IMG/VR virus record: IMGVR_UViG_3300028384_000441
Coordinates: 1-43,786 of that record
DNA length: 43,786 bases
From: a virus
Strand: one strand, 5' to 3'
A program made the position numbers and the translations under genes. The notes beneath the pieces were generated by a model. That model was not told the origin of the DNA. It did not search any database and saw nothing but the letters and a program-made list of their open reading frames with translations. Within the stretch, counting starts at the first letter, position 1, and each line of letters opens with the position of its first letter. Of this stretch, positions 15,101 through 33,917 are shown in pieces.

Positions 15101-18100
15101 TTGGTATTGGCGTCGGTAACTATAAGAGACTCACTATTGACTATGATCTAGTTAATGGCACTAGAACTGGTCCATTCCTGATTCTAGATGTAGAAGATAG
15201 TACAGTTCAATCTATTGAAGATAAGGAATATTTGTATGTTTTCTTAGATGGTGTTCTTCAGAGAGAAGGTTATAGTTATGAAATATCTGGTCCAAACATT
15301 TTCTTTAATATTCCAATAAAAAAAGAAATGAAGATTGACATGCGCTACCTCTATGGTAGAGATGTTGGTCAGATTCTAAACATCTTTGATTTTGCTCCAG
15401 ATACTTACTATGCTACTGGTACAATTACATTTACCACTTCATCCACTTTCTGGAATAATTTTGAGACTTATGCTTGGATGGGTGACAAGATTGGATCTGG
15501 TATTCATGCTTGGCAGGTAAAACCAGATGGAACTTATAATGTCATTGGTAAAGTAGGAAATTTATTCCGTACTCCAACATCTGCCAAGTTTGATATTATT
15601 AAAGCACAGAATGCTTTTGTTATTGATGGTCTCGATATAGTATTTGGTGTAGAAGGAGATTATTCTAGAAATATTACACTAGCATCATCAGAATTTACTG
15701 ATGTTACATTTACTCTTATCAAAGATGAAAAAGGTAGAAAACTTCTGAGAGCAGACAACCAAATTTGGGCAGGAACTATTCTTGGTAAGACTTATAAGAA
15801 TCCTTTTGTAAGTCTATCAAATGGTGATAAGGTTCGTGTAGAAGGTGAAGATAAATTTAGAAGTATTAAAATTCTCCCTGGACAACTTACTAGTAAAGAT
15901 GGCAGAGATGGAGAACAACTAACTGATGATATTTTTGGATCTGTTTCTGTCGAATCGTATAATGGCACAACTAGAGGAGAAGGTCTCAGTATTATCGCAA
16001 ATGTTGAGAATGGATCTGTTGTTTCTCTAACTTGGAACCAAAGAAGTTACAATCCTATTACTCAACCAACTGCTTATCAATATTTTACTCCACCTGTATT
16101 AGAGTTTATTCCTGAAGATGGTACTGGTGGCGGTGCTCGTGCTCAGGTTATCGTAAGCAAAGGTCAAGTCCTAAGTATTGAACTGATTGATGGTGGTTCT
16201 GGATATACCAAAGCACCAAAAGTTATTGTTGCTAGAAGATATGAAATTCTGAACGAAAGAGATGTTGGTGTATCACTGATCACGCTAGGAGTAAATCCAT
16301 ACGTTGATATGCAAGGTATGGTGATATCAGCGATTGTTGATACCATCAGTCTCCCACCACCACTGGCATTTACATCGTCTGCTGTTATTATTGATAGTCC
16401 AAGGCGTGTTGATATCGATCTGGAAGCAGAGATCCAGTTGTTTGAAACTGTAGGGGAAGAACTCTCTGGTGCTACTTCAGAAATTCGTAGTGACAGACCT
16501 CAACCAACAGGTGCTATTACTATTGATATGTTCACAGCGACTAATCAATACGTTTCTCAAGTTTCTGGTCGTGTTGCTGATATTATTAGCAATTCTATTG
16601 TAACTGCTAGCAGGCAGATTACAAGCACTGTACATAATATTATTCAAAATACTGCACTCAGTAACATCAACTACTATGAGGTTGCTGCGTACACTGATGT
16701 TGATACTCCTGCTAATGCTACTATTATCTACATCCCAGATACTACCAAGTTTAAGACCAATGGTTTCTTAATGATTGGTAATGAAATGGTACGCTACATG
16801 CGTAAGTTGGATGATAGATTCTTAATGGTAGAAAGAGGTCAGAATGCTCAATTCTGGCCAGCAGGAACATATCTCAGACAGGTCCCAGATCCAGTATCTA
16901 TTGCACCTGCAGGTGTTGCTGAGATTATTAGTGAGGCATCTATTGTTACAGTTCGTGTAGCAGCAGGAATTGATGGAAGAACTGGTCAAGATCGTATTCG
17001 TTACGAGGAAATTGTAACACCTGATGTAAGACAATCTACTGTTGCTTCTAGAGTTCTAACTGCTCAGGTCCAACCAGAGTTGAATATAGAATCTATCATT
17101 GATATTAATTCTGATAATCAGACATTCTATGAGGTTGGAGCACCAAACATTGATGTACAATTTGAGACATTTGCTCATAATCAAACAGAAGTTAAAGGAG
17201 AAATCAAAAAAGATCCATTTACAATAAGTCAAATTAGTATTGAACAAACAATTGTAAGTGTTGCCATTAATCCTGTTATAACTTCTACTGCTTCAATTCT
17301 ATTCACCAGTGAAGTTGTATCTAAGGTATCTACCGAACCCATAGAAACGCCTTTTGATTCTCTTGGACACAAAGAGACTACTGTACGTGGTGAAATTAAA
17401 AAACTACTGGTTGCTAACACATATGAAATTAATCAAACAATTGTAAGTGTTGCTGTTAATCCTACTATAACTTCTACTGCTTCAATTCTATTCATTAGTG
17501 AAGTTGTATCTAAGGTATCTACAGAACCTGTAGAAACAGTTTTTGATTCTCTTGGACACAAAGAGACTTTAGTTAGAGGAGAACTTCGTAAGGATATTAA
17601 AGATTTATATTCTGCTAAGGTATCTCAAACGATCGTTAATGTTGCTATAGGACCCGCAATTTCAAGCACATTTGAGGTTAAAATACTATCTGATGTCATT
17701 TCTTTCGTACAGGTTTCTCCAACAGCAACATCATTCTCTACATTTGAACACAAAGAAACCTTTGTAAGTAAGAGTAGAGATAGATTTGATGCTCTTCTAG
17801 GAATAATTTCATTTGAATTTAATGTAACTGATACTGTCGTTAGTGTTGCTGTTAGTCCTACAGTCGCCTCAACATCTACTGTTAGCGTTAATAGTGAGGT
17901 TAAACAAATTGTTATTAGAGAACCACGAATAACTTCTTTTGTTACTACTGCTTTCCAAGCAGAAGTTAATAATATAATTCAGACTGTACATAGTGAATTT
18001 GTAGTTCAGAGAAATGCTACCGAAGTTTTAATATTCACACCACCTTCTGGTGCTGTAGATGGTTATCAGGAGAGCATATTTATTTCCGATCCAATTTCAA

Positions 18101-18636
18101 CCAGACTAAATGGTTTTGTCGATCTTGATGATTCATATGAAGTTATCAAGAGAGATTTAACAAGTATTTTTGTTGGTAATAGTGTATTTGGATTGGATAA
18201 TGACTATATTGGATCTTACGAAAGAACTAATGCTGGACATACAATTAGTCACTTTGATGGTATTTTTGATGATGGTGTATGCAATACTTCTGGATTGACA
18301 TTACTAGAGTTTAGCGCATACTTCCCATCCATGACTATTAGAGACTTTACAGAAAGGAAAGATTCTAGTTATACTTTGACTGGTGCTAAATTTAATTTAA
18401 TGCCACCATCAATTCAAAATCCTGTTGCCATTAGTTCTTCCTTGGGAACTATTGGTGGACCGATTATTGTACAAGATACAACATATTTCCCCAACGAAGG
18501 TTACTTGTTTAGCAGTGGTGGAACTGTAATACAATACACTGGCAAAACGGATACATCATTCACTGGATGTACTCTAGTATCTGGACCAGATGCCATCAAT
18601 AATAATGATGAGTTGATTCCACATTCAATTTTATAA
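9115..18636 (+). CDS. gp7: gp7-position baseplate protein, 3' part (after frameshift)
   Basis: An open frame of 3,173 residues with no start of its own; joined to the 5' part it gives about 3,705 aa, against 1,032 in T4 gp7. Domains in order: GxGY beta repeats; a YHYH-like domain (9613-9948); more GxGYT modules (about 10890-11070, 12030-12350, 16095-16235); three LDGVLQ/LNAVLQ modules (about 13240, 14920, 15235); two RDIGY helical modules (13468-13800, 14160-14500). The C-terminus has ~63-aa tandem repeats (17056-17970) and a fibre-like end. An internal ATG at 9709 would drop part of the YHYH domain, so I do not treat it as the true start. Likely baseplate periphery; host contact is inference. 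Confidence 0.82.
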   Translation, partial: DTFPRVPTVEVTSGRGAVVRAIVTGDQVTSLVIDNPGEYYSSPPLVRITDSNGKGRFADYTAVVNTDGKITEFIQNAAGSFYNQNTVKVDIIPVGSGATATPLLTEWNFNRFEKLKPQLDTEFGYVFKNYNNILEYGYGQVANPKALRVALNDNISVTGSEPVVKTHSPILGFAYDGNPIYGPFAHENPLDQSSSIVRMTSSYSKNGSRASGPSLTDYPLGSFINDYTYVHKSGSLDENNGRFCVTPEFPEGVYAYFLTIDSNQVPQFPYVLGENFYSLPVDSNYNSNINQNDVPKNSKRFYVPGMPRNGEGVVAQISEVKSGTIDSIGIDRSSDNFSVNNKVYFDNRGSEGIGAESLVESVKGKLVSYIDSFENKVVKLTTIQNAYLFTDDILRQPSSGASGTIVGNIRNDNLIVLKDVIGVFDNTGTFSADIKTFFILLDQKSSYTKGATLSLTDGINPAIATGEVLEGTSNQNTVEIKVLSGDWLDFNTGEYFLQSDNFFNTSGTRPVILTSLSDGLEPFDVNQSVALVETTENHGLGIGDLVDINILPDDAQKTKTYYLRKRLYQEVVFQTPSFSSTINDTGIGRFQILNGGADYTAGTYNDVPLTGGTGTGATANITVSSAGVVSSITIQEKGSGYRKSDYLGVDDESLVRSGASQSTARLTLYVDHVGFASGSTILTLDSTSGFSEGDLISVGQEIMEIVSVNGKNLTVTTGRENTAVVDHYDEQQVSLYKARYNFDTGFQVGTVAGSGYVKSYDLNTQKAVIVFDYNIDKTTAQSIQVSTTFFDSSSPQRLVSVKSAEPIDFKFEFSEDNITYTENPNLELQEFYKYKFDTSHSSLIGTYFDLSPSKNFNIITTEKQASTILPGNPGAFTDVKFGFGSRLASNDYTKKVGTDFTNFYYFDKNNIVNADDKYLKIVTDPLQGQKIVNYVTPNRFTYNVATPPLWDGSGTITYTTTGQFAVGEINTFKITNLGLNYKKVPIIVGIDPNANFKAEATVLFDSVINKVVGVRRDSKGSNYSNPKAIVVDGDGVDLSFNVVVRNGEIFSITVDNPGRGYTYTPKIEIVEGDVEAYVDSNTIGVPQSISITRNGGAFHLDKTVASTFSSKYVVALKDFDGDFQKGEIVTQKIGSTEVSRARVSEWRFGSNLLKVESITGTLRENVAIAGATSRASGIIKAIYASTFKENITAFFDNIGFYRSDRGKLGVSNQKLLDSNFYQDYSYVVKSKTPIDTWRDLIKSTTHPAGFKLFGQVDIEATAEAEMPAQLPQASHFSVVQLWDPDKNKITVENTRRTVTQIIQKVENQRIRKGIGSVATSEFNFNESRAFTVSLSAPFDGYYDTDGRLQGTTTFQLRDGNNLPFTPYNAKNLIITLDGVLQEPEVAYTVSGDNITFSQPPLGPYQKLTGSNLSEITSYKGVTFYCKYFTFKDNQYNNRYFKKLRNIFQRNGRWIDSANQIERNRTFIIEESIGYGRQFYPSLDWSTKLDDYQRDIGYILDAYEHDIRFGGNVKTVDYISIFDQDTTYDYITNNKAESLSIFKYATNLAKLAIRNWDIVENGVSYIQGSRLMTVADTNRLAIGMHVSSGRAYPVGTKIISIDSDTQITLSNAALANSGGSGGAPQGITSYDGFTSGDVIVPTNTAAVEPGDTFAVSPGDTFIAPTSFSSSDQATFFFSGINNGTFYDASNLIEANKELIQNEVSNFTFDNYTLTNVSQEKCKRDIGYLLDAMIYHLRFGGNQEVVEFARLYFTNLGYPSGEERTYLRSDEEKVAAEYAWNLVGIYTKNAMRNSLSAPTYPGSPDPVEDTSIALDNQLPYCAEVESAIDSMISIVNDIIDNGTGAVDATPINANKPGNWTPSTPYTDYNIIPDTALPDGECDDVVSSVDSLYDNVESVLNSQLVAKTLPDYVDGENKIFEMYWDDGSEVDTEEDEDLFLSLNAVLQRPKYSANYPGEDAYYIDRTTIPNKLVFDVAPIWDQDFGAKSIGEPTAVEKVVGIGVGNYKRLTIDYDLVNGTRTGPFLILDVEDSTVQSIEDKEYLYVFLDGVLQREGYSYEISGPNIFFNIPIKKEMKIDMRYLYGRDVGQILNIFDFAPDTYYATGTITFTTSSTFWNNFETYAWMGDKIGSGIHAWQVKPDGTYNVIGKVGNLFRTPTSAKFDIIKAQNAFVIDGLDIVFGVEGDYSRNITLASSEFTDVTFTLIKDEKGRKLLRADNQIWAGTILGKTYKNPFVSLSNGDKVRVEGEDKFRSIKILPGQLTSKDGRDGEQLTDDIFGSVSVESYNGTTRGEGLSIIANVENGSVVSLTWNQRSYNPITQPTAYQYFTPPVLEFIPEDGTGGGARAQVIVSKGQVLSIELIDGGSGYTKAPKVIVARRYEILNERDVGVSLITLGVNPYVDMQGMVISAIVDTISLPPPLAFTSSAVIIDSPRRVDIDLEAEIQLFETVGEELSGATSEIRSDRPQPTGAITIDMFTATNQYVSQVSGRVADIISNSIVTASRQITSTVHNIIQNTALSNINYYEVAAYTDVDTPANATIIYIPDTTKFKTNGFLMIGNEMVRYMRKLDDRFLMVERGQNAQFWPAGTYLRQVPDPVSIAPAGVAEIISEASIVTVRVAAGIDGRTGQDRIRYEEIVTPDVRQSTVASRVLTAQVQPELNIESIIDINSDNQTFYEVGAPNIDVQFETFAHNQTEVKGEIKKDPFTISQISIEQTIVSVAINPVITSTASILFTSEVVSKVSTEPIETPFDSLGHKETTVRGEIKKLLVANTYEINQTIVSVAVNPTITSTASILFISEVVSKVSTEPVETVFDSLGHKETLVRGELRKDIKDLYSAKVSQTIVNVAIGPAISSTFEVKILSDVISFVQVSPTATSFSTFEHKETFVSKSRDRFDALLGIISFEFNVTDTVVSVAVSPTVASTSTVSVNSEVKQIVIREPRITSFVTTAFQAEVNNIIQTVHSEFVVQRNATEVLIFTPPSGAVDGYQESIFISDPISTRLNGFVDLDDSYEVIKRDLTSIFVGNSVFGLDNDYIGSYERTNAGHTISHFDGIFDDGVCNTSGLTLLEFSAYFPSMTIRDFTERKDSSYTLTGAKFNLMPPSIQNPVAISSSLGTIGGPIIVQDTTYFPNEGYLFSSGGTVIQYTGKTDTSFTGCTLVSGPDAINNNDELIPHSIL
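9613..9948 (+). other. YHYH-like domain within the gp7-position protein
   Basis: HSPILGFAYDGNPIYGPF, then a long insert, SLDENNGRFCVTPEFPEG, VYAYFLTID and FPYVLGENF. This order (SPI-G-AYDG-PIYGP, LDE-NGRF-VTPE-PEGTY-Y, FPY-IG) is that of YHYH-domain proteins. The eponymous YHYH reads YAYF here, so putative metal-binding histidines are lost. Confidence 0.75.
17245..17589 (+). repeat. Near-identical 189-bp tandem repeat inside the gp7-position gene
   Basis: The stretch starting CAAACAATTGTAAGTGTTGC at 17245 recurs at 17434 with the same first 20 bases or nearly so, and strong identity over about 155 bp (for example CTTCTACTGCTTCAATTCTA, then GATTCTCTTGGACACAAAGA). The encoded unit is QTIVSVAxNPxITSTASILF, then SEVVSKVSTEPxET and DSLGHKET. 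Three more diverged units flank it, giving a period of about 63 aa. Confidence 0.85.
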
Positions 18637-20562: not shown

Positions 20563-20594
20563 CTAGAGACTAGATAGTGTATTGGCGGAGTACA

Positions 20595-22268
20595 ATGCCA
20601 CAGAAGACCAACCTTAATGTAAATCCTTATTACGAGGACTTCGACGCGAGTAGGAATTTTTATAAAATTCTATTTCGTCCTGGTTACTCCATTCAAGGTA
20701 GAGAATTAACTCAGGTTCAATCAATTCTTCAGAATCAAGTTGAAAGCTTTGGTAAGTATGCTTTCAAGCAAGGAGAATTAGTCATTCCTGGTGAGGTAGG
20801 TCTCAATACAAAGTTAGATTACGTAAAATTATCTTCAGTATCCGAAGTTGCTATTTCGGAAGGAGATGATATTGTTTATAAAAAATATGATATTACTCAG
20901 TTAATTGGTCTACAACTGCGTGGTCTTACTTCTGGTGTTGTTGCTAATGTTCTCTCCGCAAATTTAGCAACAGAAACATCATCCGATACTTTATATGTAA
21001 GTTATCAGAATAGTGGTAATTCTAATGCAGAAAACACTTTCCGTCAAGGAGAAACTTTAGAAGTTATTGATGGAGTTAATACTCCTTTAATGGTTGTTGG
21101 TACTGATGGCAGTGTTTTACCCACAAGTATTAATGTAACCAATCCAGACACAGGTACTGTTGCGTCACTGGAAAGTCCAGCAATGGGATATGGTTCTGCT
21201 GTAAAAGTAGAAGAAGGCATCTATTTTGTTAATGGTTACTTTGTACGTAATGATGAACAACTTTTAGTTATTGACGAGTATTATAACAAACCATCCGCAA
21301 AAGTTGGTTTCACAATTAAAGAAGAAGTAATTACTCCAGAAGAAGATAAAAGTCTATATGATAATGCTATTGGTTCTTCGAATTATACAGCACCTGGAGC
21401 GCATAGGTTAAAAATTAGTCTAGAGTTAAAAGAGTTTGCTCTAGATGCAATCACAGACAAGAATTTTATTCAACTTCTCACTGTAAATCGTGGTGTTGTA
21501 CAAAGAAAAGTATCACCAGCAGATTATAGTGTTCTTGAGCAGACTTTAGCTAGAAGAACATTTGATGAAAGTGGCGATTATGTAGTGCAGGATTTCTCTA
21601 TTGACATTAGAGAATATGCTCAGAAAGACGGCAATAGAGGTTTGTATGCTATTGATGAGTTTGGTCTTTACAATAATCTTTCTGCTACTGAAGCAAGCAG
21701 AAAGATGATTGCCAGCATTGGTCCTGGTAAAGCATATATTAGAGGATATGAAATTGTTAATAAAGAAACTAAGTATCTTGAAATTAACAAAGCAAGAGAA
21801 AGTCTCAGTAGTGACAATGTAACTCTAAAAACAAAAGGACTTCCAACTTATACAATTACTAATGTATTCGGAAGTGTTCCTCTAAACAAAGAAGGATCAC
21901 AACTTACTGCATATCCAACTGTGTATCTATACTCTTTATTCAACGATGGATATGTTGGTCTCAGCAATACAGAATTAGATTCAAACTATCGTCAAACTAT
22001 TGACAGAAGAGGTAAATTCTTTGATTCAAATATTGGAATCAAAACTGTCACTTTAGAAATTGTTGATGTAAATATTCCAATTTCTAGTATTATACCCTCT
22101 GATCTCAACGATACGTTTAGCAAATTATGGTACGTTAAAACAAGGGCAGGTACAAACATTGTTAGTTATGTAGATGTTCTTTCATTCTCAAAAGTATTCA
22201 AACCACTCAAGAACCCAGGAACTACGGAAGAATCTAGATTCTTGGAAGTAAAACTATTACTCCTGTAA
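20595..22268 (+). CDS. DUF4815-type structural protein, 5' part (before frameshift)
   Basis: From the ATG at 20595, preceded by GGAG. The N-terminus MPQKTNLNVNPYYEDFDASR then FYKILFRPGYSIQGRELTQV and QSILQNQVESFGKYAFKQGE is the DUF4815 signature of phage virion proteins. Also seen are VNGYFVRNDEQLLVIDEYY, VGFTIKEEVITPEEDKSLYD and PGAHRLKISLEL. The position after gp8 is that of T4 genes 9/10, but I see no direct likeness to them. The frame closes after EVKLLLL. The true continuation (EVK-TITPVIGTAKPSNFYL) lies in the -1 frame, consistent with one missing A in a run at 22250-22253. Confidence 0.85.
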   Translation: MPQKTNLNVNPYYEDFDASRNFYKILFRPGYSIQGRELTQVQSILQNQVESFGKYAFKQGELVIPGEVGLNTKLDYVKLSSVSEVAISEGDDIVYKKYDITQLIGLQLRGLTSGVVANVLSANLATETSSDTLYVSYQNSGNSNAENTFRQGETLEVIDGVNTPLMVVGTDGSVLPTSINVTNPDTGTVASLESPAMGYGSAVKVEEGIYFVNGYFVRNDEQLLVIDEYYNKPSAKVGFTIKEEVITPEEDKSLYDNAIGSSNYTAPGAHRLKISLELKEFALDAITDKNFIQLLTVNRGVVQRKVSPADYSVLEQTLARRTFDESGDYVVQDFSIDIREYAQKDGNRGLYAIDEFGLYNNLSATEASRKMIASIGPGKAYIRGYEIVNKETKYLEINKARESLSSDNVTLKTKGLPTYTITNVFGSVPLNKEGSQLTAYPTVYLYSLFNDGYVGLSNTELDSNYRQTIDRRGKFFDSNIGIKTVTLEIVDVNIPISSIIPSDLNDTFSKLWYVKTRAGTNIVSYVDVLSFSKVFKPLKNPGTTEESRFLEVKLLLL

Positions 22269-25200
22269 TTGGCACAGCAAAACCAAGCAATTTCTACTTA
22301 CAGGAGAGAGGAAACGGTTTCAATCCCGATTCCGATATTATAATTTCAAAAGGAACCTTATCTCAAGGAGGGAGTGCATATACTGCTAAGTTTGCTTTAT
22401 CATACTTTGATCCTCAATTCTTCACTAGAATTATTTTGGAATCCGTAGTTCCAAGCAACTCATACAACGTTGGTGAATATGTTTATGGTTTGACTAGTGG
22501 TGCTTATGGTGTTGTAGAGGGAGCTCCAAATGGTGTATATTCTGTAGGAAAAATCTTATTCATCAAAACACTTTCTGGTAAATTTGTTCCTGGAGAAACT
22601 ATTAGAGACGAAGCAGGAAATCTTGTTAAAATTGCCAAAGAAAATACAATTTCTCACTTCATTGTTCAAGAAAGAGGACTAGGATATCCATCAACTTCGA
22701 CTATTGAAATTGATGGAGTTGGTTATCAACAGTCTCAGGTTGAACTAGGATTTAATGGTCAAGGTATTTACAGAGTAGATATTATTGATAGAGTTTCTGT
22801 TGATGTAGAATTCACAAAACCACCAATCATCACAATCAATTCTGGAGAAACAACTCCAACAACTTCCGCAGTAATTATTCCTGTACTTAATAGAAATACT
22901 GTTATCACTTATACTCCCCAGAACGTCAAGTCGTTTGGATCTTCTTATGGTTCTGGTGGTATTAATACATTTACAGCAGATACTGTCGTAGATGACAGGG
23001 AATTTGCAAATATTTCATCCGTAACTGATTTTACTTTCTTCGGTTCTAAGGGCACCAAATTCTTAGAATCTACTAGTTTTAGTGCTGATGCTAGTAGCAT
23101 TGTTCAGCAGGGAGATCTTATTCAATTCTCAGATGCTTCTAACAATGTTATTAGAGCAATTGTACAATATGCTACTCAGCAAAAAGGATCCGCTAAAACT
23201 AGAATCTATATTGATGAAACACTATATGATGATGTAACTAGCACCAGTATTGTATTACTTCGCCCCCAGATTAATAATCCCAATGCTGGAACTTTATTGT
23301 TCCCAACTGGAAGCAAGCAAATACAGCAAATCTCTGCTGGATCAGATGATACTAAAATTAAGTATTATTTCAGAAGAGATTTTGTAACTGCTGGTTCTAC
23401 TGGTGGTGGTATTATCACTTTTGCTGCTCAACTACCATTTGGCACACAAAGATTCACTACATTTAATGAAAGCAATTATATCATTACCGTTCTCAATAAG
23501 AATAGTGCTGATCTGGTTGAAGATGGTGATATTGTTTATATTGATGAGGACAATGTAGAGGTTACCTCAGCTACTGATACTGCCAGTGGATTGACATCTG
23601 GCAGTATTACATTCCAACTACCTTCTTCTTACTTTAATACAAACTTCGACAATGTAGAGAATTATGTTGCACCTGAGTTAAAATTAACAGCAACTTTAGA
23701 AGTTTCCAATGCAAAACCAAGACTCAAAACTGCTATTAAAAATAAGCGTATTGTTGTTGATTCTGCTGGCGATAGAGTTATCCCATTCAGAGGAACTGAC
23801 TATGATAGTAATGTTGTCGAAACCCTTTCTTTTTCTGACGCATATAGATTGCGTTATGTATATGAAGGAACGAGCACACAACCACCAGAGATTGACAGTG
23901 CTGGCAATCTAGTTTCTGGTACAGATGTAACAAATAGATTTACTTTTGATAATGGTCAGAGAGACACAATCTATGATGTTTCCAGAATCGTTCTAAAACC
24001 TGGATTTGATGCAACTGTTGGTCAGATTGTAATTGCTTTTGATTACTTCGAGCATTCACAAGGAGATTTCGTAACTATTGATAGTTACTTGCATGAAGCG
24101 GGAGTTCTAGAAGATGAAATTCCCACATTCAATTCTTCTTCTCTCGGAAATATAGAACTCAAGAATGTTATTGATTTCCGTCCTAAAGTCAATAGTAGCA
24201 CAATTGTTGCTGGTTATCAAGATACTTCAACTCTAGAAGTTACGACTAGCAACTTTACTGGTCCTGGTTCTGTTGTAGCAGCAACTCCTGCTCCAGATCT
24301 CAATCTGGAATATACATTCTCATTTAGTCAAATTCAATATCTAGATCGTATTGATGGTATCTTCCTTAATAAAAAAGGTGAGTTTATTGTTAAGGAAGGA
24401 AATTCTTCATTGAATCCTTCTAAACCAGATCCAGTTAAAGACGCTGTTCCTCTGTTCTACGCTTACATTCCAGCATATACAACTAGCAGCAAGGATGTAA
24501 GAATTACTCCTGTTGAGCACAAGCGTTACACAATGAAGGACATTGGTAAGCTTGAAAAACGTATTGAGCGTTTGGAGTATTATACAACTCTAAGTATCCT
24601 TGAGCAGCAAGCACTTAATATGCAGGTCAAAGATGAAATTGGTCTTGATAGATTCAAGTCTGGTTTCTTTGTTGATAACTTCGAGACTCATGGTATTGGC
24701 AACCTTGTTTCTGCAGATTATAAGTGTGCTATCGACAGCAGACAGTCAGTATTAAGACCACAGTCTAAAGAAGATTCAATTCTATTGAGAGAAGTTAATA
24801 CTAGAGAAGATCAAAGATCTGTTGCTGGTTACCAAAGAACTGGTGATCTTGTAACACTACCATATTCTAATCTCAAACTACTTGGAAATGATTTTGCTTC
24901 TAAGACAATCAATCCAAATCCGTTTGTTGTCTTCCAGTATGTTGGTGAAGGTTCTGTATCTCCACAAATCGATCAATGGTATGATCAAACTGTAGAACCA
25001 CTAGTTATTGATACGAATACGAGTCTATTTGACATCTTCATTGCTAAAGATGATACCAGAGAAAGTTTCTCTAGTCTTTTCAATTCATTTATAGTAAATT
25101 GGGTTGGTACATCATCTGCATTTACATCAATTAATTCACTCGGTGAAACAAATACATCACTCGCCAAATCTTCAGTTAAATCTGCATCTGTAGGAAGTTC

Positions 25201-28200
25201 TTCTAATATCAGTCCGCAGAATAATGAATTGGGCAAGGGAGTTCAAACTAAGAGCGTTGGTGAAAATGTTGTATCAACTTCTCTGCAATTCTTCTCAAGA
25301 ACAAGACCAATTAAATTTGTTATTGGCAGACTCAAGCCTCTAACTAAAGTATCAGTATTCTTAGAAGGCAGAAATATCAACCGTTGGGTAAATCCAGATT
25401 TGAGATTTACTGGTCTTGCTGGTAATTCTTTGTCTGCTTTCAATGGTGAAATTGTAACAGACGAGAACGGTAATGCCAGCGGTCTGATTTTACTTCCTGC
25501 TGGTTATGCTCCTAGAGAGAATGCTACTTGGACTGGTGATGTAGATACGGTTGAATATGATACATCATCTGAAGAACTAAGATTTACATCGGGTGAATTA
25601 ACATTCAGATTTACTTCCAGTAACACAAACGAAGATAAGGCAAATGTTGATACATATGCTGAAATTAAATATTATGCATCTGGTATCTTACCACAGAATC
25701 CTTCCAGCATTGTATCTACCAAACCTTCATACTTTAAGTCTAATGAAGGTGTTCAGTTTGTCGAGAGCAACACTGATAATCCACTAAGACCTAACCCACT
25801 TGCACAAGTATTCAAGGTTGAAAACTTTGAAGGTGGTGTATTTGTAACTGGTGCTGATCTATATTTCAAGACTAAGAGTGAAAATATTCCAGTAAGAGTC
25901 TATATGACTAATGTCGATTTCGACAAACCTGCTAAAAATATTGTTCCTGGTACAGAAAAAACACTAACTCCAGAAACGTATCTTAAGTGCTTCTCTTCTG
26001 GTAATATTTCAGTAACAAAAGGAGAGTATGTGGTGGGAACCAGTTCTGCTGCTTCTGGTCCCATTTCCAGAATTATTGATAAGAACGGTGTTGAACTAAC
26101 ACCCACCTCTACTGGAATTTATGCTTTGACCAATGAACAGGTTTATACTCTTGTTCTAAAAAATCATAATGGTCGCTCATTCTTGCAGAATGAATTATTA
26201 GAAGTTCCATCTTTGACTTTAGCAAATGCTACTGGTGGTACAGAATTGACACTTTCAATTGCTAAAGATAGTGGAAAACTTTCTGATATCAGAATTACAA
26301 ACCCTGGTCAAAATTATGACAGTGCAGTTTTAACTATCGAAAGTCCTCAACTCCCTGGTGGTTCTGTTGCAACTGCCAAGATCAATGTATCAAATGGTCA
26401 GATTTATAATGCTGAAGTTTCTATTGCTGGATTTGGATACACTGAATCGCCGTCAGTGGTCATCAAAGGCGTTGGAAACGGCGCTGGAGGGTGCGAAGTA
26501 GAGACGTTTATTGAGATTGATACACCTGCAGTTAGAATGGGTGTAGCGACCGATTTCGAGGGTTTGACAGAATCTACAACACCAACACATTTTAGGTTTG
26601 ATTACCCTGTGTATCTGGAGAATGATTCCGAATATGCATTGGTAATTGAAACTGATTCAACTGATTATGAATTATGGTCTTCTAAATTGGGTGAGGCAGA
26701 TCTATCCACCAGCACCGTTATTACTACACAACCATCACTAGGATCTTTGTATAAGTCTCAAAATACTGAAAATTGGACTCAAGATCTTGAGCAAGATCTC
26801 AAATTTACTCTATATCGCGCCGAGTTTGATATTTCTAGACCTTCAGAACTACTACTAAAGAATGTTAATCTTGGATATGAACTTCTAGAAATGAATCCAA
26901 TTGAGACGGATGCTACATCAGAGTCTATTGCTACTTCGAAGTTATTTAAAAATAATAACAGTATTATCAAAATTAATCATAGAGATAATGGATTTGAAGA
27001 TAGCGGTAATTCTTATGTATTCTTCAGAGGAGCAGAAGAAACAGGTGCTATTCCTTCAGAAACTTTCAATACCAATTTATTTCAGGTTATGAACTCTGGT
27101 ATTGATTCTTACAATATCAGAACCATAACTAAAGCGGCAAGAAGTTCTGTTGGCGGTGGTCATGTATATGCTACTTTTAATAGAAAATTTGAAACTCTAT
27201 ATCCACAAGTTCATTACTTGACAGTTTCTGGAACTACATTAGACACTTCTGTTAAAACAACTAATATTGTTCCAATTGATTCTTCCACTACAAATTATAC
27301 TTCATACTCACAGACCGATTTCGAAAGAACTTTCCTCAATGAACCACATTACTTCGATAATCAAAGAGTGATTGCATCTGAAATTAATGAGACTTTAAAT
27401 AATATTTCGAGATCTTTAACTTATAAGATGGAGTTATCATCTACATCATCTCATCTTTCTCCTGTCATTGATTTGTCTAGTGCCTCTGTTAAGACAATAT
27501 CCAATAGAATTGAAAATTCAGAGGGTCAAGAAAACAGATATGGCAGAAGAAATCAACTAATTGAATTCTACCCAGTTTATTCATTCTCATTATCAACAGT
27601 AACTCCAGGAGTTTCTTATCAGAATAATCAAAGCATCAAAGGTAAAGCTTCTGCTGCTAATGGTACTATTGCTAAAGTAGATGGAAATTCAGTTTGGGTA
27701 AAACTCAAGACAAAGCAAGGATTTACTGTTGGAGAAGAGCTTGAATTAACTCAATATGCAAATTCGCAATCTGCCCCTGTAGTTACTGTAGGATCTAGTC
27801 CTTCTCTTGTAACACCAATTATTAATAGTTCCACACAGTCTGCTGCTGGAGAGTCTATTACAATTGTTGCTCGCAATCCAATTGAATCTAAGATTTTAGA
27901 AACATATGATAATAGAATTACTGGCAAGTCTATCATTTGGAATAGAACAACTAGAGTATTGACTCTCAGAACTGATATTCAACCTATCAATGATGATTAT
28001 AATGCAAGAATTATTGATAGTAATTTGTATGCTAGAACGAATGAAGTAACAGATCAAATTGCTGATATCTTCCGTGTTGGTGATATTATTTCATATCCAG
28101 ATCAACCAGATGATGAAGCGTTCTTCATGGAAGTAGCAAAAGTAACATATAGTTCTGGTGTTGATTTTGTTGAAGAAGATACTTCCAAAAATAGTTCTTC

Positions 28201-28579
28201 GATTGCAAAGTACGTAACTAAAGAAGTTTATATTACTAATCCTGCAACAGCAATTAATGTTCATCTACTCGCTAATGTCAAGAATGTTACTGATATTGAA
28301 GTTCTCTACAAATATAAGAGAGCATCGAGTCAGGACAACTTCGAAGATTCTGAATGGTTCTATTTCAATGAAGGAGGGGAACCAGATACTCTAGAGATTG
28401 CTGGTGCAGAAAATACTATTTCTAGTATTGTTGAGAAGCAATCTTCTTATCAAGACTTTAAGTACAGCGTATCTGGTCTTCCAGAGTTTTCTTCATTCGC
28501 AATCAAGATTGTAATGAAGGGTGTTGATCCAGCATATGTTCCTAAGATTCAGGACATTCGTGCAGTTGCTGCTTTTTAA
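22253..28579 (+). CDS. DUF4815-type structural protein, 3' part (after frameshift)
   Basis: An open frame of 2,108 residues continuing the DUF4815 protein (about 2,661 aa joined). It starts TITPVIGTAKPSNFYLQERG, directly after the A-run. The conserved centre is KRYTMKDIGKLEKRIERLEY then YTTLSILEQQALNMQVKD and GLDRFKSGFFVDNFETHGIG (nt about 24520-24700), with a short coiled coil. GxGYT-like modules occur near 26280-26490 (NPGQNYDS, AGFGYTESPSVVIKG). The C-terminus, SVSGLPEFSSFAIKIVMKGV then PAYVPKIQDIRAVA, is typical of the family. An internal ATG at 22436 could start translation but would lose conserved residues. Likely peripheral baseplate or fibre attachment protein, by position. Confidence 0.82.
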   Translation, partial: TITPVIGTAKPSNFYLQERGNGFNPDSDIIISKGTLSQGGSAYTAKFALSYFDPQFFTRIILESVVPSNSYNVGEYVYGLTSGAYGVVEGAPNGVYSVGKILFIKTLSGKFVPGETIRDEAGNLVKIAKENTISHFIVQERGLGYPSTSTIEIDGVGYQQSQVELGFNGQGIYRVDIIDRVSVDVEFTKPPIITINSGETTPTTSAVIIPVLNRNTVITYTPQNVKSFGSSYGSGGINTFTADTVVDDREFANISSVTDFTFFGSKGTKFLESTSFSADASSIVQQGDLIQFSDASNNVIRAIVQYATQQKGSAKTRIYIDETLYDDVTSTSIVLLRPQINNPNAGTLLFPTGSKQIQQISAGSDDTKIKYYFRRDFVTAGSTGGGIITFAAQLPFGTQRFTTFNESNYIITVLNKNSADLVEDGDIVYIDEDNVEVTSATDTASGLTSGSITFQLPSSYFNTNFDNVENYVAPELKLTATLEVSNAKPRLKTAIKNKRIVVDSAGDRVIPFRGTDYDSNVVETLSFSDAYRLRYVYEGTSTQPPEIDSAGNLVSGTDVTNRFTFDNGQRDTIYDVSRIVLKPGFDATVGQIVIAFDYFEHSQGDFVTIDSYLHEAGVLEDEIPTFNSSSLGNIELKNVIDFRPKVNSSTIVAGYQDTSTLEVTTSNFTGPGSVVAATPAPDLNLEYTFSFSQIQYLDRIDGIFLNKKGEFIVKEGNSSLNPSKPDPVKDAVPLFYAYIPAYTTSSKDVRITPVEHKRYTMKDIGKLEKRIERLEYYTTLSILEQQALNMQVKDEIGLDRFKSGFFVDNFETHGIGNLVSADYKCAIDSRQSVLRPQSKEDSILLREVNTREDQRSVAGYQRTGDLVTLPYSNLKLLGNDFASKTINPNPFVVFQYVGEGSVSPQIDQWYDQTVEPLVIDTNTSLFDIFIAKDDTRESFSSLFNSFIVNWVGTSSAFTSINSLGETNTSLAKSSVKSASVGSSSNISPQNNELGKGVQTKSVGENVVSTSLQFFSRTRPIKFVIGRLKPLTKVSVFLEGRNINRWVNPDLRFTGLAGNSLSAFNGEIVTDENGNASGLILLPAGYAPRENATWTGDVDTVEYDTSSEELRFTSGELTFRFTSSNTNEDKANVDTYAEIKYYASGILPQNPSSIVSTKPSYFKSNEGVQFVESNTDNPLRPNPLAQVFKVENFEGGVFVTGADLYFKTKSENIPVRVYMTNVDFDKPAKNIVPGTEKTLTPETYLKCFSSGNISVTKGEYVVGTSSAASGPISRIIDKNGVELTPTSTGIYALTNEQVYTLVLKNHNGRSFLQNELLEVPSLTLANATGGTELTLSIAKDSGKLSDIRITNPGQNYDSAVLTIESPQLPGGSVATAKINVSNGQIYNAEVSIAGFGYTESPSVVIKGVGNGAGGCEVETFIEIDTPAVRMGVATDFEGLTESTTPTHFRFDYPVYLENDSEYALVIETDSTDYELWSSKLGEADLSTSTVITTQPSLGSLYKSQNTENWTQDLEQDLKFTLYRAEFDISRPSELLLKNVNLGYELLEMNPIETDATSESIATSKLFKNNNSIIKINHRDNGFEDSGNSYVFFRGAEETGAIPSETFNTNLFQVMNSGIDSYNIRTITKAARSSVGGGHVYATFNRKFETLYPQVHYLTVSGTTLDTSVKTTNIVPIDSSTTNYTSYSQTDFERTFLNEPHYFDNQRVIASEINETLNNISRSLTYKMELSSTSSHLSPVIDLSSASVKTISNRIENSEGQENRYGRRNQLIEFYPVYSFSLSTVTPGVSYQNNQSIKGKASAANGTIAKVDGNSVWVKLKTKQGFTVGEELELTQYANSQSAPVVTVGSSPSLVTPIINSSTQSAAGESITIVARNPIESKILETYDNRITGKSIIWNRTTRVLTLRTDIQPINDDYNARIIDSNLYARTNEVTDQIADIFRVGDIISYPDQPDDEAFFMEVAKVTYSSGVDFVEEDTSKNSSSIAKYVTKEVYITNPATAINVHLLANVKNVTDIEVLYKYKRASSQDNFEDSEWFYFNEGGEPDTLEIAGAENTISSIVEKQSSYQDFKYSVSGLPEFSSFAIKIVMKGVDPAYVPKIQDIRAVAAF

Positions 28580-28588
28580 TTTCCGCGC

Positions 28589-28795
28589 ATGACTTACATC
28601 AAAGTAAAAGGGCATGATGGTCTCGTTAGAGACGAGACCACAGGTGCCATCTTGAATCATGACAGTTCTGCTATTGAAGCAAGACGTAAACTAAAACACT
28701 TGAATTCCGCGTTGGAAGACATAAATATGTTGAAGGATGAAGTCTCTGAAATTAAATCCCTACTTAGAGAGTTAGTAAAAAATGCCAGCAATTAA
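28589..28795 (+). CDS. Small conserved phage protein with C-terminal coiled coil (68 aa)
   Basis: 68 aa starting MTYIKVKGHDGLVRDETTGA then ILNHDSSAIEARR, and ending in a heptad helix DINMLKDEVSEIKSLLRELV. This layout (YVKV-GH-LVRD-TGAILN, then a coiled coil with EI-SLL) is a recurrent small protein of T4-like phages and cyanophages, function unknown. It starts 9 nt after the DUF4815 stop and overlaps the next start by 14 nt. A structural or assembly role is inferred from its neighbours. Confidence 0.8.
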   Translation: MTYIKVKGHDGLVRDETTGAILNHDSSAIEARRKLKHLNSALEDINMLKDEVSEIKSLLRELVKNASN

Positions 28796-31700
28796 TGTAG
28801 CAAGAACTGATACTTTTGAGCAGCAAAGACTCAAAATTAATCAGATTGGAGATCAAATTTTTAACGTTACTGCTGGCGGTAGTGACTTATCTACTGGTCT
28901 TTTAAAACTAGGTGATGGAACTAGATTTACTCCATCACTAGCATTCACATCTGATGCAGAGCTTGGTATCTACAAACCATCACAGGATACTATTGGGTTT
29001 GTAGCAAATACAAAAAAAATATTCGATGTCTCTGATATCAATCTAAAGTCTTACAAGAATCTTCTTTTACAAAAGAACGTCATCACCACAGAAAGTATTG
29101 TTATTACCAACACTGGTTCTGAGTATGATGAAGGGACTTATCCAAACATTCCTCTTATTGGAGGAACTGGAGACGGTGCTTTAGCAGAATTTACCGTTGT
29201 GGGTTTTGATGGTACAGTCACAAATATTGGCGCTAACTATACTGCTGGTCAATATACTGGTATCGACCTCATTGGTGGTAATGGAACAGGTGCTATATGT
29301 GCTTTTGATGTTGATGTCCTTGATGGTGCTATTACAAATGGAGGATCTGGATATCCACCAGGATCATGGACAGCAGTTCCTGTTACTGGAGGAACTGGAT
29401 CAAATGGATCTTTAAACATCACAGTTACTGGTACTACAGATATTACTGGAAACATTTCAAATGCTGGTACTGGATATACACAAGGTGTATATGCTCAGAT
29501 TGATATTTTTAACGTTGCTAGGCAGACGTTTACTGTAATCTCGGTTGCCAATCCAGGAGTGCCACCACCAAATAACATTTACAATATTGATGGAACTAAT
29601 AGACCAGTTCTAACACTAGAAATTGGCAATACTTACAGATTTGATTTATCAGATCCTGGATTGTCAACACACCCATTTTACTTTCATGGTGCTAGTATTC
29701 TAGATATTTTACCTGAATCAGACTTTACTGTTGTAAGAAATGGACTAGAAGGTACTGTTGGCGCTTTCGCTGATCTAGTTATTCATGACACTGCTACACC
29801 ACAGACAATCGGATATAATTGTTCTGCTCACAACGGTATGGGCAACTCTATATCCGTTGTTACTGGAACAACCTCAAACTCTGGTAGAGGTGCTACTGCT
29901 AATGTTACTGTAGATGCTAATGGAAATGTAACAGATGTTATTGTTACCCAATCAGGTGAAGGATATGCAGCAGGAGACGTTCTTCGATTTATCAACTCAC
30001 AAATTGGTGGAGGTACTGGAGCAAGATATAGCATCACTGGAGTATCATACGATAGTACCGTTACTGCTGCTTCTGTCAATTCGGAAGGGCAAAACTATTC
30101 TGTAAATGATATTTTAGGAATTGATAACACTTTCTTTGGTGGATTTGGTAGTGGATTCGCATTTACTGTAACCACAAACCCAGGAAGGATTTCCAATCTT
30201 GATATAACATCATATGGTTCTGGATACACTGTAGGAGATCTTTTGAATCTACCAACAGGAGTAACAGGATTAACTACAGTTCTTCCAGGTGAAGTTACTG
30301 GAGTTGCCACCACACTAACTGCTGGTCAAGCACAGATCACTATTGCTAACACTTCCAATCTCCAAATTGGAATGAATGTGTTTAATGGTCCTGGTGATGT
30401 TGGATTCGTTGCTCAGGGTGCTGTAATTCAAAGTATTGACAGTGATACAACTCTAACAATGTCGTTCCCAGCTGACATTTCTGGTGCAGCAAACCTAACA
30501 TTCTCTTCTCCAAATACAACTCTAATTAATGTAACATCAGTTACTGGCATTGCTATTGGAGACTCGGTTACACAGACTTCTGGCAGTGGTGTATTAGCAG
30601 CGGATACTACTGTTAGCAGTATTGATGCTGCTGCTTTGACGATTACTCTGAGTGTTTCTCCAACCTCTCCTGGTAGTGCTACTCTGTCATTCGCACCATC
30701 CTTTGGTGTTGGTACTACCCCATTTGAATATAGAGTCGATGTTCTAGGGTCAGTAAAAACAGTCGAAGTTTCTGATGGTGGTAATGGATATTCTGTAACT
30801 GACCTACTATCTGTAAATCCATCAGATCTTATTCAACCGATTACAAGAGTAGTCAAATTCTATAGCGTACAAACACTAACGTTTAGTGGTAGTGTTCCCG
30901 ATAGTGCTATGTCTGTTGGCGACACTATCAAACAGAGAGATGGTGCTGTAGTACAGGTCACATTGACAGCTGGTGCTGCTGTACCAGCAGACGCAGATAG
31001 TACATATACTGGTGTCGCTACTAGTGGAGGTAGTGGAAGCGGACTTACTGTTGATGTTGTTCGTGGTGGGGATGGTTCACCATCAGCTATTGTAAATGCT
31101 GCTGGTTTTGATTATGTCCAAGGAGAAACAGTAACAGTCTTAGGTAGTCTAATTGGTGGCGCAAGTCCAGGAGATGATCTAACACTCGAAGTTTCTAGTA
31201 TTACAACATTCGACGCTCAAGATATTATTGCCGTACAGTCTTCAGGCGGTAATATTCAGAGTATTATTGTTGCTAATCTAACACAAGGCATTGATACTAC
31301 TTTTGCTGCTGGTGAGGTATGTATCGTAAATAGTGGAAACACATCATTTACTATTGCTACTGCTTCAGCGGAAGGTGGAGACTACAAGATTCTAATTGAT
31401 GATGTTTTTGTTCCCAATCTTACTCTATATGCTGGTAGCACATATGATTTTGATCTAACAGATTCTTCTAATGCCACGCATAACTTCTCACTATCTTCAT
31501 TCGAAGGTGGTGATAAAGCACCATCATTCTTTGACGGCATTGCTTGTACTCTAGATGATACTTCAACCACACTAACAGTACCTACAACAAATAATCTTGC
31601 TGTTGGCATGTCAGTATCATCTGAAGGTGATGGAAGTTTGGCAATAGGAACAACTGTTGTAAGTATCGACAGTTTAACAACTTTAACTATTGATAGACTT

Positions 31701-33917
31701 CCATCTAGCAGTGGAGCTTCTGTTCTAACTTTCACTGGTTCTGAATATACTGATGGTGTTACTAGAGAGAATGATATTCTCACTATTAAAGTAACTGCTT
31801 CAACACCAACTCTATATTACTATGATGCTGGTGATACTGGAGATGATGATGCTGGATTTAACTTTGGTACAGCAGCAACTCTAACAGTTGATACAAACAA
31901 TCCTAAAACTTTTGGCAGTGGATTCCAAGCAGAAGTCATAACTATTGATAGTACCGATATTGTTGTATCTAATGTAGATACAGGCAATATTTCTGCTGTA
32001 TCTTTCACTTCTACTGAGTTAGTTACTACTCTCGATGCTTCTGTAACTGGAACATTGACTGCTCCAGACATTAATGGAACAGATTTAGAAATTTCAACTA
32101 TTAACAGCACTGCTGGAATTACATTAACCACAGCATCTACATTTTTTATTCAGTCTAATATTGATGTATATAATCCCGATACAAGTACATCAACCTTATC
32201 TATAAATCTAACTGATGGCAATTTAACCACACAAGGTCAATTAAAAACTTTCAGTGATATTAATGTCAATGATCAAATTGAAATCGAAACAAATGAGATT
32301 CGTAGTTTAGGAACTAACGATCTTAAGTTAGTTCCAGCACCAGGAAGAATTGCTAACTTTGCTACTGATAGTGCTTTACAAATTCCAGTTGGTGATACGA
32401 GTGCTAGACCACCATCAAATCAACTGAGAGATGGTCAGATCAGATTCAATACAGACACACAGCAATATGAAGGATACAATGCTACAAATACAGCATGGTC
32501 TTCTCTTGGTGGTGTTAGAGACCTAGATGGAAATACTTTCATTAAAGCAGAAGAAACTGTAGGTGCTAATGATAACACACTATGGTTCATTAATGATGGT
32601 ATCAACACTATTAAAATTACAAATGAGTTCCTTGAGTTTGTAAATTGTAAGAAGATTTCTTCTAGTAATATAAACGCTCCGTCATATGTTGATTGGAATG
32701 CCAATACACCTGTAAATACTGGGGATTACTTAAAGTATAAGAATAATCTTTATGAAGTAACTACTGCTGGTACTACTGCTACTTCTGGTTCTGAACCAAC
32801 ACATACTACTGGCGCTGTTATCAACGGAACCGCTGAACTCACATTCTGGGGTCCTGCTGTTGCTCCTCTTAGATTTGAAGAACTTCTAAATGTTGAAATT
32901 GATCCAACTGGTTCTTCGCCTCTGCTCATCAATGGCGATTTAAGACTCAATGAGAATACTATTAGAACAGATGTCAGTGATTTAATTCTACAACCAAACT
33001 CTGGTAAGAAAGTAGTAATTGATGCTGCTACTTCTTTGGTATTGCCTACAGGAGCAGATGGAGATAGAGGAGCAGCAATAACAGGTTCTATTCGTTTCAA
33101 TACATCATCAACACAATATGAAGGATATGATGGAACTAACTGGGGATCTCTTGGTGGTGTTAAAGACGTTGATCAGAACACCTTTATCATTCCAGAGACT
33201 GCTCCAGGTGCTAACGAGAATATTCTATACTTCTACAATGATGGTAACAATACTCTCCAGTTAACAACTACAAGACTTGACTTCCTTGCCATTGATACTA
33301 TTAGATCGGTAACAACTGATGAATTCGAAGTTACCGCATCTCTAGTAACATTTGATGCTGCTACTACAACTTTAGATAATACATCATTAACAACAACATT
33401 CCTACACACCAACAAACAATATTTTGATATTGGTCTTTCTGCTGGTCTAACTGTAGATCCTGTTCTACGACTAGATAATGTAGGAGATGTGTATTTTAAC
33501 ACAAACTTTGGCAATGGCAATTTCCAGGGCGTTAAAGTATTTGATGGTGATCTAAAAGAGTTTGAACTAGCAGATATCAAGTTACTAACAGACAAGATTA
33601 CTCTTGTTAAGGGAACTTCTAACAATGGAAGCACTCTCTTGTATAACAATGCTTCTGAAGAAGCAGCAAAAGTTACTGTAGTTGCTCACGATCCAACTAC
33701 AGATGATAAAGAGTTTATTGAGTTTGGTGTCATTGATGATGGTACAGATGTATATGCTACCCAGTATGGCAATGTTAGAACTGGTATTCAATTGATTGAT
33801 GCTACTTTTGAAGTTACTGCTTCTAACAACATCAGACTAAATATTGAATTGGGATCTGGTGTCGCACCAACAAACAGTGTCAATATCACATTCACGTCCA
33901 ACGTAATTAAGAAGTAA
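28782..33917 (+). CDS. Giant fibre-like virion protein with cupredoxin-like domain (1,711 aa)
   Basis: The N-terminus ARTDTFEQQRLKINQIGDQI is a recognised start of cyanophage structural proteins. Residues about 100-250 hold GxGY beta modules. Residues about 255-362 form a cupredoxin-like domain with H297, C347, H350 and M353. Then more GxGY modules and IGM...SIDS beta modules (about 515-640, 930-975). A second, degenerate cupredoxin half begins near 865. From about 1210 come two fibre repeats with RFNT, QYEGY, LGGV and NTFI. The C-terminus ends VAPTNSVNITFTSNVIKK. Composition is Thr/Ser/Gly/Asp-rich throughout, as in tail fibres. It overlaps the small coiled-coil gene and precedes another structural gene by 1 nt. 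Confidence 0.85.
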   Translation: MPAINVARTDTFEQQRLKINQIGDQIFNVTAGGSDLSTGLLKLGDGTRFTPSLAFTSDAELGIYKPSQDTIGFVANTKKIFDVSDINLKSYKNLLLQKNVITTESIVITNTGSEYDEGTYPNIPLIGGTGDGALAEFTVVGFDGTVTNIGANYTAGQYTGIDLIGGNGTGAICAFDVDVLDGAITNGGSGYPPGSWTAVPVTGGTGSNGSLNITVTGTTDITGNISNAGTGYTQGVYAQIDIFNVARQTFTVISVANPGVPPPNNIYNIDGTNRPVLTLEIGNTYRFDLSDPGLSTHPFYFHGASILDILPESDFTVVRNGLEGTVGAFADLVIHDTATPQTIGYNCSAHNGMGNSISVVTGTTSNSGRGATANVTVDANGNVTDVIVTQSGEGYAAGDVLRFINSQIGGGTGARYSITGVSYDSTVTAASVNSEGQNYSVNDILGIDNTFFGGFGSGFAFTVTTNPGRISNLDITSYGSGYTVGDLLNLPTGVTGLTTVLPGEVTGVATTLTAGQAQITIANTSNLQIGMNVFNGPGDVGFVAQGAVIQSIDSDTTLTMSFPADISGAANLTFSSPNTTLINVTSVTGIAIGDSVTQTSGSGVLAADTTVSSIDAAALTITLSVSPTSPGSATLSFAPSFGVGTTPFEYRVDVLGSVKTVEVSDGGNGYSVTDLLSVNPSDLIQPITRVVKFYSVQTLTFSGSVPDSAMSVGDTIKQRDGAVVQVTLTAGAAVPADADSTYTGVATSGGSGSGLTVDVVRGGDGSPSAIVNAAGFDYVQGETVTVLGSLIGGASPGDDLTLEVSSITTFDAQDIIAVQSSGGNIQSIIVANLTQGIDTTFAAGEVCIVNSGNTSFTIATASAEGGDYKILIDDVFVPNLTLYAGSTYDFDLTDSSNATHNFSLSSFEGGDKAPSFFDGIACTLDDTSTTLTVPTTNNLAVGMSVSSEGDGSLAIGTTVVSIDSLTTLTIDRLPSSSGASVLTFTGSEYTDGVTRENDILTIKVTASTPTLYYYDAGDTGDDDAGFNFGTAATLTVDTNNPKTFGSGFQAEVITIDSTDIVVSNVDTGNISAVSFTSTELVTTLDASVTGTLTAPDINGTDLEISTINSTAGITLTTASTFFIQSNIDVYNPDTSTSTLSINLTDGNLTTQGQLKTFSDINVNDQIEIETNEIRSLGTNDLKLVPAPGRIANFATDSALQIPVGDTSARPPSNQLRDGQIRFNTDTQQYEGYNATNTAWSSLGGVRDLDGNTFIKAEETVGANDNTLWFINDGINTIKITNEFLEFVNCKKISSSNINAPSYVDWNANTPVNTGDYLKYKNNLYEVTTAGTTATSGSEPTHTTGAVINGTAELTFWGPAVAPLRFEELLNVEIDPTGSSPLLINGDLRLNENTIRTDVSDLILQPNSGKKVVIDAATSLVLPTGADGDRGAAITGSIRFNTSSTQYEGYDGTNWGSLGGVKDVDQNTFIIPETAPGANENILYFYNDGNNTLQLTTTRLDFLAIDTIRSVTTDEFEVTASLVTFDAATTTLDNTSLTTTFLHTNKQYFDIGLSAGLTVDPVLRLDNVGDVYFNTNFGNGNFQGVKVFDGDLKEFELADIKLLTDKITLVKGTSNNGSTLLYNNASEEAAKVTVVAHDPTTDDKEFIEFGVIDDGTDVYATQYGNVRTGIQLIDATFEVTASNNIRLNIELGSGVAPTNSVNITFTSNVIKK
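29544..29875 (+). other. Cupredoxin-like domain with C-x2-H-x2-M motif
   Basis: LTLEIGNTYRFDLSDPGLST is followed by HPFYFHGA, with H297 (codon 29670) or H302 as the N-terminal ligand. A long loop leads to TIGYNCSAHNGMGNSISVV with C347 (codon 29820), H350 and M353. The Cys-x2-His-x2-Met spacing is that of amicyanin/pseudoazurin-type blue copper sites, and the beta strand order agrees. Copper binding is not shown; the family call is from motif only. Confidence 0.65.

Follow-up and report, generated by a model that had tools for sequence, protein, structure and literature searches.

The large fibre-like gene of this cyanophage encodes a cupredoxin-like module that probably holds a type-1-like copper site, in a protein whose chains each probably retain one or more metal-type sites for a role on the virion exterior. 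The window analysed here, an IMG/VR virus record of 43,786 bases, belongs to a T4-like cyanophage (Kyanoviridae) as judged by gene order and PHROG matches. The gene (28782..33917, +) encodes a virion structural, fibre-like protein of 1711 aa related to T4-GC_350, with 5 Cys, 8 His, and 6 Met residues. The phrog_6005 profile matched the complete protein (E-value 0; 1904 bits), which places it in that cluster.

The gene order gp7 - GC_112 - GC_350 - GC_512 of Synechococcus phage S-MbCM7 is common to the window. Here, a DUF4815/phrog_358 baseplate protein is followed by a small GC_112-like ORF, the GC_350/phrog_6005 gene, GC_512, and an ORF of 2918 aa, which occupies the place of a large tail-fibre/neck CDS in S-MbCM7. 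The GC_112-like ORF (28589-28795, +; 69 codons) is syntenic with other cyanophages, overlaps the start of the fibre gene, and is shorter than the length limit of the ORF list. The phrog_358/DUF4815 protein is split over two frames (20577-22268 and 22436-28579, +), while its S-MbCM7 counterpart is one CDS of 8463 nt. The frameshift near 22240 that splits the gene is either a sequencing error or a real lesion.

Copy 1 of the module, supported by conservation, AlphaFold2, and Foldseek, comprises residues 245-363 (29514..29870, +) and has the full ligand set. The predicted ligands are H297 (codon 29670..29672, +) as the first His in the strand-4 position, C347 (29820..29822, +) as the Cys that closes strand 7, H350 (29829..29831, +) as the second His, and M353 (29838..29840, +) as the axial Met, followed by the conserved G354. 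Their numbering and order in the initial annotation agree exactly with the translation. The same annotation named H302 (codon position 29685) as an alternative His ligand; this candidate was rejected since the position is occupied by Ser, Tyr, or other residues in relatives, while H297 is invariant. The spacing C-x2-H-x2-M is that of amicyanin, whereas pseudoazurin and plastocyanin have C-x2-H-x4-M. The comparison made in the annotation holds, therefore, for amicyanin but not for pseudoazurin, and the offset is visible in plastocyanin alignments. The motif occurs once across the nine large ORFs of the window (12,122 aa) and was not seen in 300 composition shuffles of these ORFs.

All four residues are invariant in alignments of 28 and 58 rows, with pairwise identities of 24-76%. 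The survey of ligand conservation proposed in the annotation has thus given homologues that keep Cys, His, and Met. A DNA pattern encoding YYYC-x2-H-x2-MG, without the upstream His, matched at least 120 viral and at least 116 cellular stretches. Among the pattern matches listed, the module was confirmed by profile in 118 viral and 106 cellular loci. Because these scans fixed only the Cys, the second His, and the Met, they tested the first His independently. It was present in 119/119 viral and 106/106 cellular aligned copies (225/225) among the matches listed, a figure to be read with the fact that the aligning profile itself expects an upstream His. Phage Sf-CH1b (L019) has C-x2-H-x4-M, with a His-Met loop two residues longer, which is the loop of plastocyanin.

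Structure prediction, which had been proposed as a check of the site, confidently gave a cupredoxin for copy 1 (AlphaFold2, 58-row alignment; pLDDT 94.2, pTM 0.87). Strands were assigned to model residues 5-14, 23-27, 35-38, 42-46, 57-60, 73-78, 87-92, 99-105, and 113-118, and both the model and Foldseek matches correspond to the eight-stranded Greek-key beta-sandwich of cupredoxins. H297, C347, H350, and M353 are residues 55, 105, 108, and 111 of the model, in which the first His stands at the start of strand 4, the Cys is the last residue of strand 7 (99-105), and the second His and the Met lie in the 7-8 loop. The top PDB matches were mostly cupredoxins, among them bilirubin oxidase, CotA, rusticyanin, Cu nitrite reductase, and ascorbate oxidase (E-values 7.5e-4 to 1e-2), with TM-scores of only about 0.5; a few unrelated non-copper beta-sandwiches (SO1698, EhICP2) also appeared. 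In BFVD, fibre and structural proteins of marine phages are among the best matches. Several further BFVD matches (A0A481YVH3, A0A481Z7Q7, A0A481Z6J5, and others), whose predicted folds are similar to that of the module, are 'Beta-sandwich proteins' from giant viruses of Loki's Castle (LCMAC, LCPAC).

The window domain gave no significant match to Pfam, NCBIfam, or PDB profiles and none at the curated cut-off of PF00127, the family of plastocyanin, amicyanin, and pseudoazurin. PF00127 and TIGR02656 matched 2 of 58 family members, at 3e-5 and 2e-4; the best value for PF00127 among the 58 was 3.1e-5, and the relative L258 scored 20.4 bits against a cut-off of 21.2. The domain is internal to a 1711-aa virion ORF and does not have the small, secreted, soluble form with a signal peptide that is typical of PF00127. 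When plastocyanins were aligned to the module profile, H, C, and H fell in register and the Met was shifted by two residues (E-values 0.1-0.3). A profile-profile comparison with phage plastocyanins was also in register but weak (probability 4%, E-value 0.0095). One match above the PF00127 cut-off, in Sf-CH1b at 18086, was dismissed as chance, since it fell in a gp5-like OB/beta-helix ORF and the matched stretch had no ligand set. Because the cut-off was tested and not reached, we class the module as cupredoxin-like by fold and ligands and not as a member of PF00127.

The same fibre contains a second copy of the module with decayed ligands (residues 843-1038; 31308..31895, +), which has about 60 extra residues. 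The sequence 'LYYYDAGDTGDDD' stands where 'YYYCxxHxxMG' would be expected. H900 (codon 31479..31481, +) is the sole ligand remaining, and D1015 (31824..31826, +) takes the position of the lost Cys. Copy 2 was predicted to have the same cupredoxin-like fold (pLDDT 88.8), with rusticyanin as the best PDB match. In two IMG/VR relatives, L100 and L114, copy 1 is absent and copy 2 is intact. Elsewhere in the window, a weak partial match to the module without the Cys, His, and Met ligands was seen at 11575-11751 (+), within an ORF of 2975 aa (9709-18636).

The relation between the two copies was examined in 60 non-redundant proteins spanning both sites, with L377 left out. This set joined isolates and earlier loci with 80 of the 435 family loci found, which were fetched by the N-terminus alone to avoid bias; some of the earlier loci (phage tblastn matches with copy 1; L100 and L114) had been found through the module. 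Copy 1 was intact in 43/60 proteins, and 17/60 had no working copy 1. In the former group, copy 2 was strict (C-x2-H-x2-M) in 2 proteins, had a longer loop (C-x6-H-x2-M) in 3, carried Glu in place of Met in 15, and was devoid of the Cys in 23. The corresponding numbers in the latter group were 13, 1, 3, and 0. A strict copy 2 was therefore found in 13/17 proteins without a working copy 1 versus 2/43 with one (Fisher p 4e-8), and still in 11/15 of the former after L100 and L114 were dropped. The loss of the copy 2 Cys also depended on copy 1 status (Fisher p 6e-5). L345, L359, and L369 were considered as members devoid of any site and rejected as such, since Cys and His are kept in longer-loop or Met-to-Glu forms.

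Each trait changed 12 times on a quick, moderately supported ML tree, so the pattern does not reflect just two clades. Pagel's dependent model was preferred over the independent one (LR 31.7, p 2e-6, with some rates at bounds). The strongly supported branches alone yielded 5 independent pairs, too few for significance. Overall, the relatives nearly always keep one site per fibre, though its location along the protein shifts. This trade-off indicates that a four-ligand site is maintained by selection at one place or another in the fibre.

Residues that are far apart in the sequence are also lost together, as would be expected of residues that serve one site. The upstream His of copy 2, located more than 100 residues before the Cys, was retained in 37/37 Cys-bearing copies versus 10/23 Cys-less copies (p 2e-7, relatedness ignored), and in the four dead copies of copy 1 the His has gone along with C, H, and M. 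Within the family, the ligands are thus conserved and lost as a set, as expected for a type-1 copper site. The upstream His was also present in 18/18 copies of the Glu type (C-xn-H-x2-E-GG), which include L391 (S-PM2), L345, L369, and 15 others. The sister sequences L332 and L333 differ in this very position (CANHEDM and CANHEDE). The Glu-type copies could represent a modified metal site with H/C/H/E ligands. Among the isolates, S-PM2 has only the Glu-type copy 2, whereas copy 2 of S-RSM4 is intact.

These observations bear on the possibility that no metal is bound at all and that Cys, His, and Met are kept for folding or for Ig-like fibre contacts, the likeness to cupredoxins being one of fold only. 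The sub-threshold scores against known cupredoxin sequence families would agree with this explanation. It is nevertheless improbable given that precisely those four positions that hold the ligands in cupredoxins never vary, that the ligands, including the distant copy 2 His, disappear together, and that the loop-length variants match known cupredoxins. The blue-copper site which the initial annotation placed in a fibre protein is borne out with regard to the cupredoxin-like fold, the complete type-1-style ligand set, and its invariance, while copper as the metal is inferred from this ligand set and the established chemistry of cupredoxins.

The suspicion that the domain is a recurrent module of marine phages was confirmed by tblastn, pattern, and profile matches. 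The tblastn search revealed it in 45 phage records, namely myoviruses of Synechococcus and Prochlorococcus, pelagiphages, and Methylophilales phages. The carrier ORFs in annotated records are labelled as structural, tail-fibre, or hypothetical proteins. The module profile detected 1-5 copies per genome in 17 phage genomes, and P-SSM2 tail-spike and S8-peptidase-type proteins are among the carriers. Baseplate proteins of cyanophages, pelagiphages, and Methylophilales phages contain relatives as well. As these phages have further copies in virion proteins other than the fibre, one site per fibre is not equal to one site per virion.

The cellular carriers among the matches listed are mainly marine Gammaproteobacteria (many of them SAR86), Alphaproteobacteria, Bacteroidota, Verrucomicrobiota, and marine euryarchaea. 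A lipobox-like N-terminus was identified in 30/107 cellular ORFs. The partner domains in the scanned cellular ORFs were cadherin, Big, and collagen repeats, plus a PBP domain in one case. In L251, L249, L189, L228, L159, and other genome_contigs loci, the carriers are marine bacterial and archaeal lipoproteins that combine cadherin, Big, or collagen repeats with the module at the C-terminal end. The module is extracellular in every setting seen. It appears to represent an undescribed cupredoxin family common to phage fibres and surface lipoproteins of SAR86, Flavobacteriia, Poseidoniales, and others.

In the explanation that we favour, His297, Cys347, His350, and Met353 would form a mononuclear type-1-like copper site on the fibre. 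The module family is widespread in marine organisms and serves at the exterior of both cells and virions, in fibres, baseplates, and surface lipoproteins. Selection would maintain at least one site per chain, in copy 1 or copy 2, and a working site would free the other to decay. Apo cupredoxins being preformed sites, copper would be taken up once the cell has lysed, with seawater or the host surface as its source. The metal-bearing module would then help the virion attach to the host surface or recognize it and add to fibre stability, rather than transfer electrons. The adhesin-type partners of the cellular relatives are in line with such a role of a carried metal at the host surface.

Stabilization of the fold, one of the roles considered in the initial annotation, could also be the sole function, with copper or another thiophilic ion acting only to stiffen the beta-sandwich so that it withstands heat, proteolysis, or light, comparable to the Fe or Zn bound by His in fibres of other phages. 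Metal ions in phage fibres and spikes are an established theme (T4 gp37 and gp12, P2 gpV), HxH sites are reported for Alteromonas phage R22Y (PMC11705849), and the extracellular location of the module would suit this purpose. The decayed copy 2 keeps the modelled fold, however, and persists in 23/60 proteins, so the domain is not obviously dependent on metal. About 650 residues separate the two possible positions of the site, a distance that fits the carrying of a metal better than local stabilization. With decayed copies that seem to be folded and a working site that moves over such a distance, a purely local staple is weakened, and we regard it as doubtful. The other roles considered earlier, the binding of host plastocyanin partners and the sensing of copper, found no support. 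An exchange of electrons between a blue-copper protein of the virion and host partners or reactive oxygen, or redox sensing, would be compatible with the full type-1-like ligand set including Met. Plastocyanin is encoded by 11/17 checked phages, though as a separate soluble gene. The module lies within long fibres and has neither a redox partner domain nor a signal peptide, and this function is quite unlikely. Still less probable is copper as bait or cargo that engages host metal-uptake proteins, a copper counterpart of the 'Ferrojan/Trojan horse' hypothesis for iron. That iron analogue is published for phage tails (PMC11705849). The recurrence of the module in phages of unrelated marine hosts would agree with bait, but no receptor is known, and the module is also borne by lipoproteins of the cells themselves, where bait would be senseless.

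Taken together, the data on this copper-type module point to a use of bound copper by marine virus tails without proving it. Should the site bind copper, a trace metal would be carried by the virions of T4-like cyanophages and of many pelagiphages, and the attachment of marine phages could be approached from a new side, through copper. A broader concept, in which abundant marine phages bear tails that are copper metalloparticles with type-1 copper needed for attachment, at least one site per fibre, and some H/C/H/E sites, is speculative and on balance unlikely. The trade-off between the copies supplies natural ligand-loss variants, which makes the metal question directly testable.

A search of literature available without subscription revealed no paper linking a cupredoxin with a phage tail fibre. 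The lone match for cupredoxin and cyanophage, a paper on Borgs, was irrelevant according to its title and abstract. Likewise, Pfam has no family for the module, and PHROGs contain it solely inside whole-protein clusters. The view of the initial annotation that the role is undescribed agrees with the descriptions in Pfam, NCBIfam, and PHROGs and with the literature searched. The ligand set and the fold are already known; the family, its virion location, and the pattern of one working site were not found described.

The module shares with plastocyanin, amicyanin, and pseudoazurin (PF00127) the sandwich and the ligand order His...Cys-x2-His-xn-Met, with H, C, and H in register. It differs from them in scoring below the family cut-off, the absence of a signal peptide, the C-x2-H-x2-MG motif, the location within a 1711-aa fibre, and His-Pro instead of His-Asn at the first ligand. 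The T1 domains of multicopper oxidases, Cu nitrite reductase, and rusticyanin are its best fold matches, and the 'HP' after the first His and the stretch 'tl..G.tY.F...HP....hg' resemble the T1 region of multicopper oxidases. Unlike these proteins, the module has no HCH trinuclear ligands, is a single domain, and lacks a catalytic partner. Among PHROGs, it is contained in phrog_30742 (tail fiber), phrog_677 (baseplate wedge tail fiber connector), phrog_27200, phrog_708, and phrog_6005, but these are whole-protein structural clusters, none of which names the module or a metal site. Fibres and spikes with iron in HxH sites (T4 gp37 and P2 gpV type; R22Y) have in common with the site predicted here a fibre metal held by conserved His. 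Their ions, however, lie on the trimer axis, whereas the predicted Cys/His/Met site of the window protein would be located inside one beta-sandwich of each chain.
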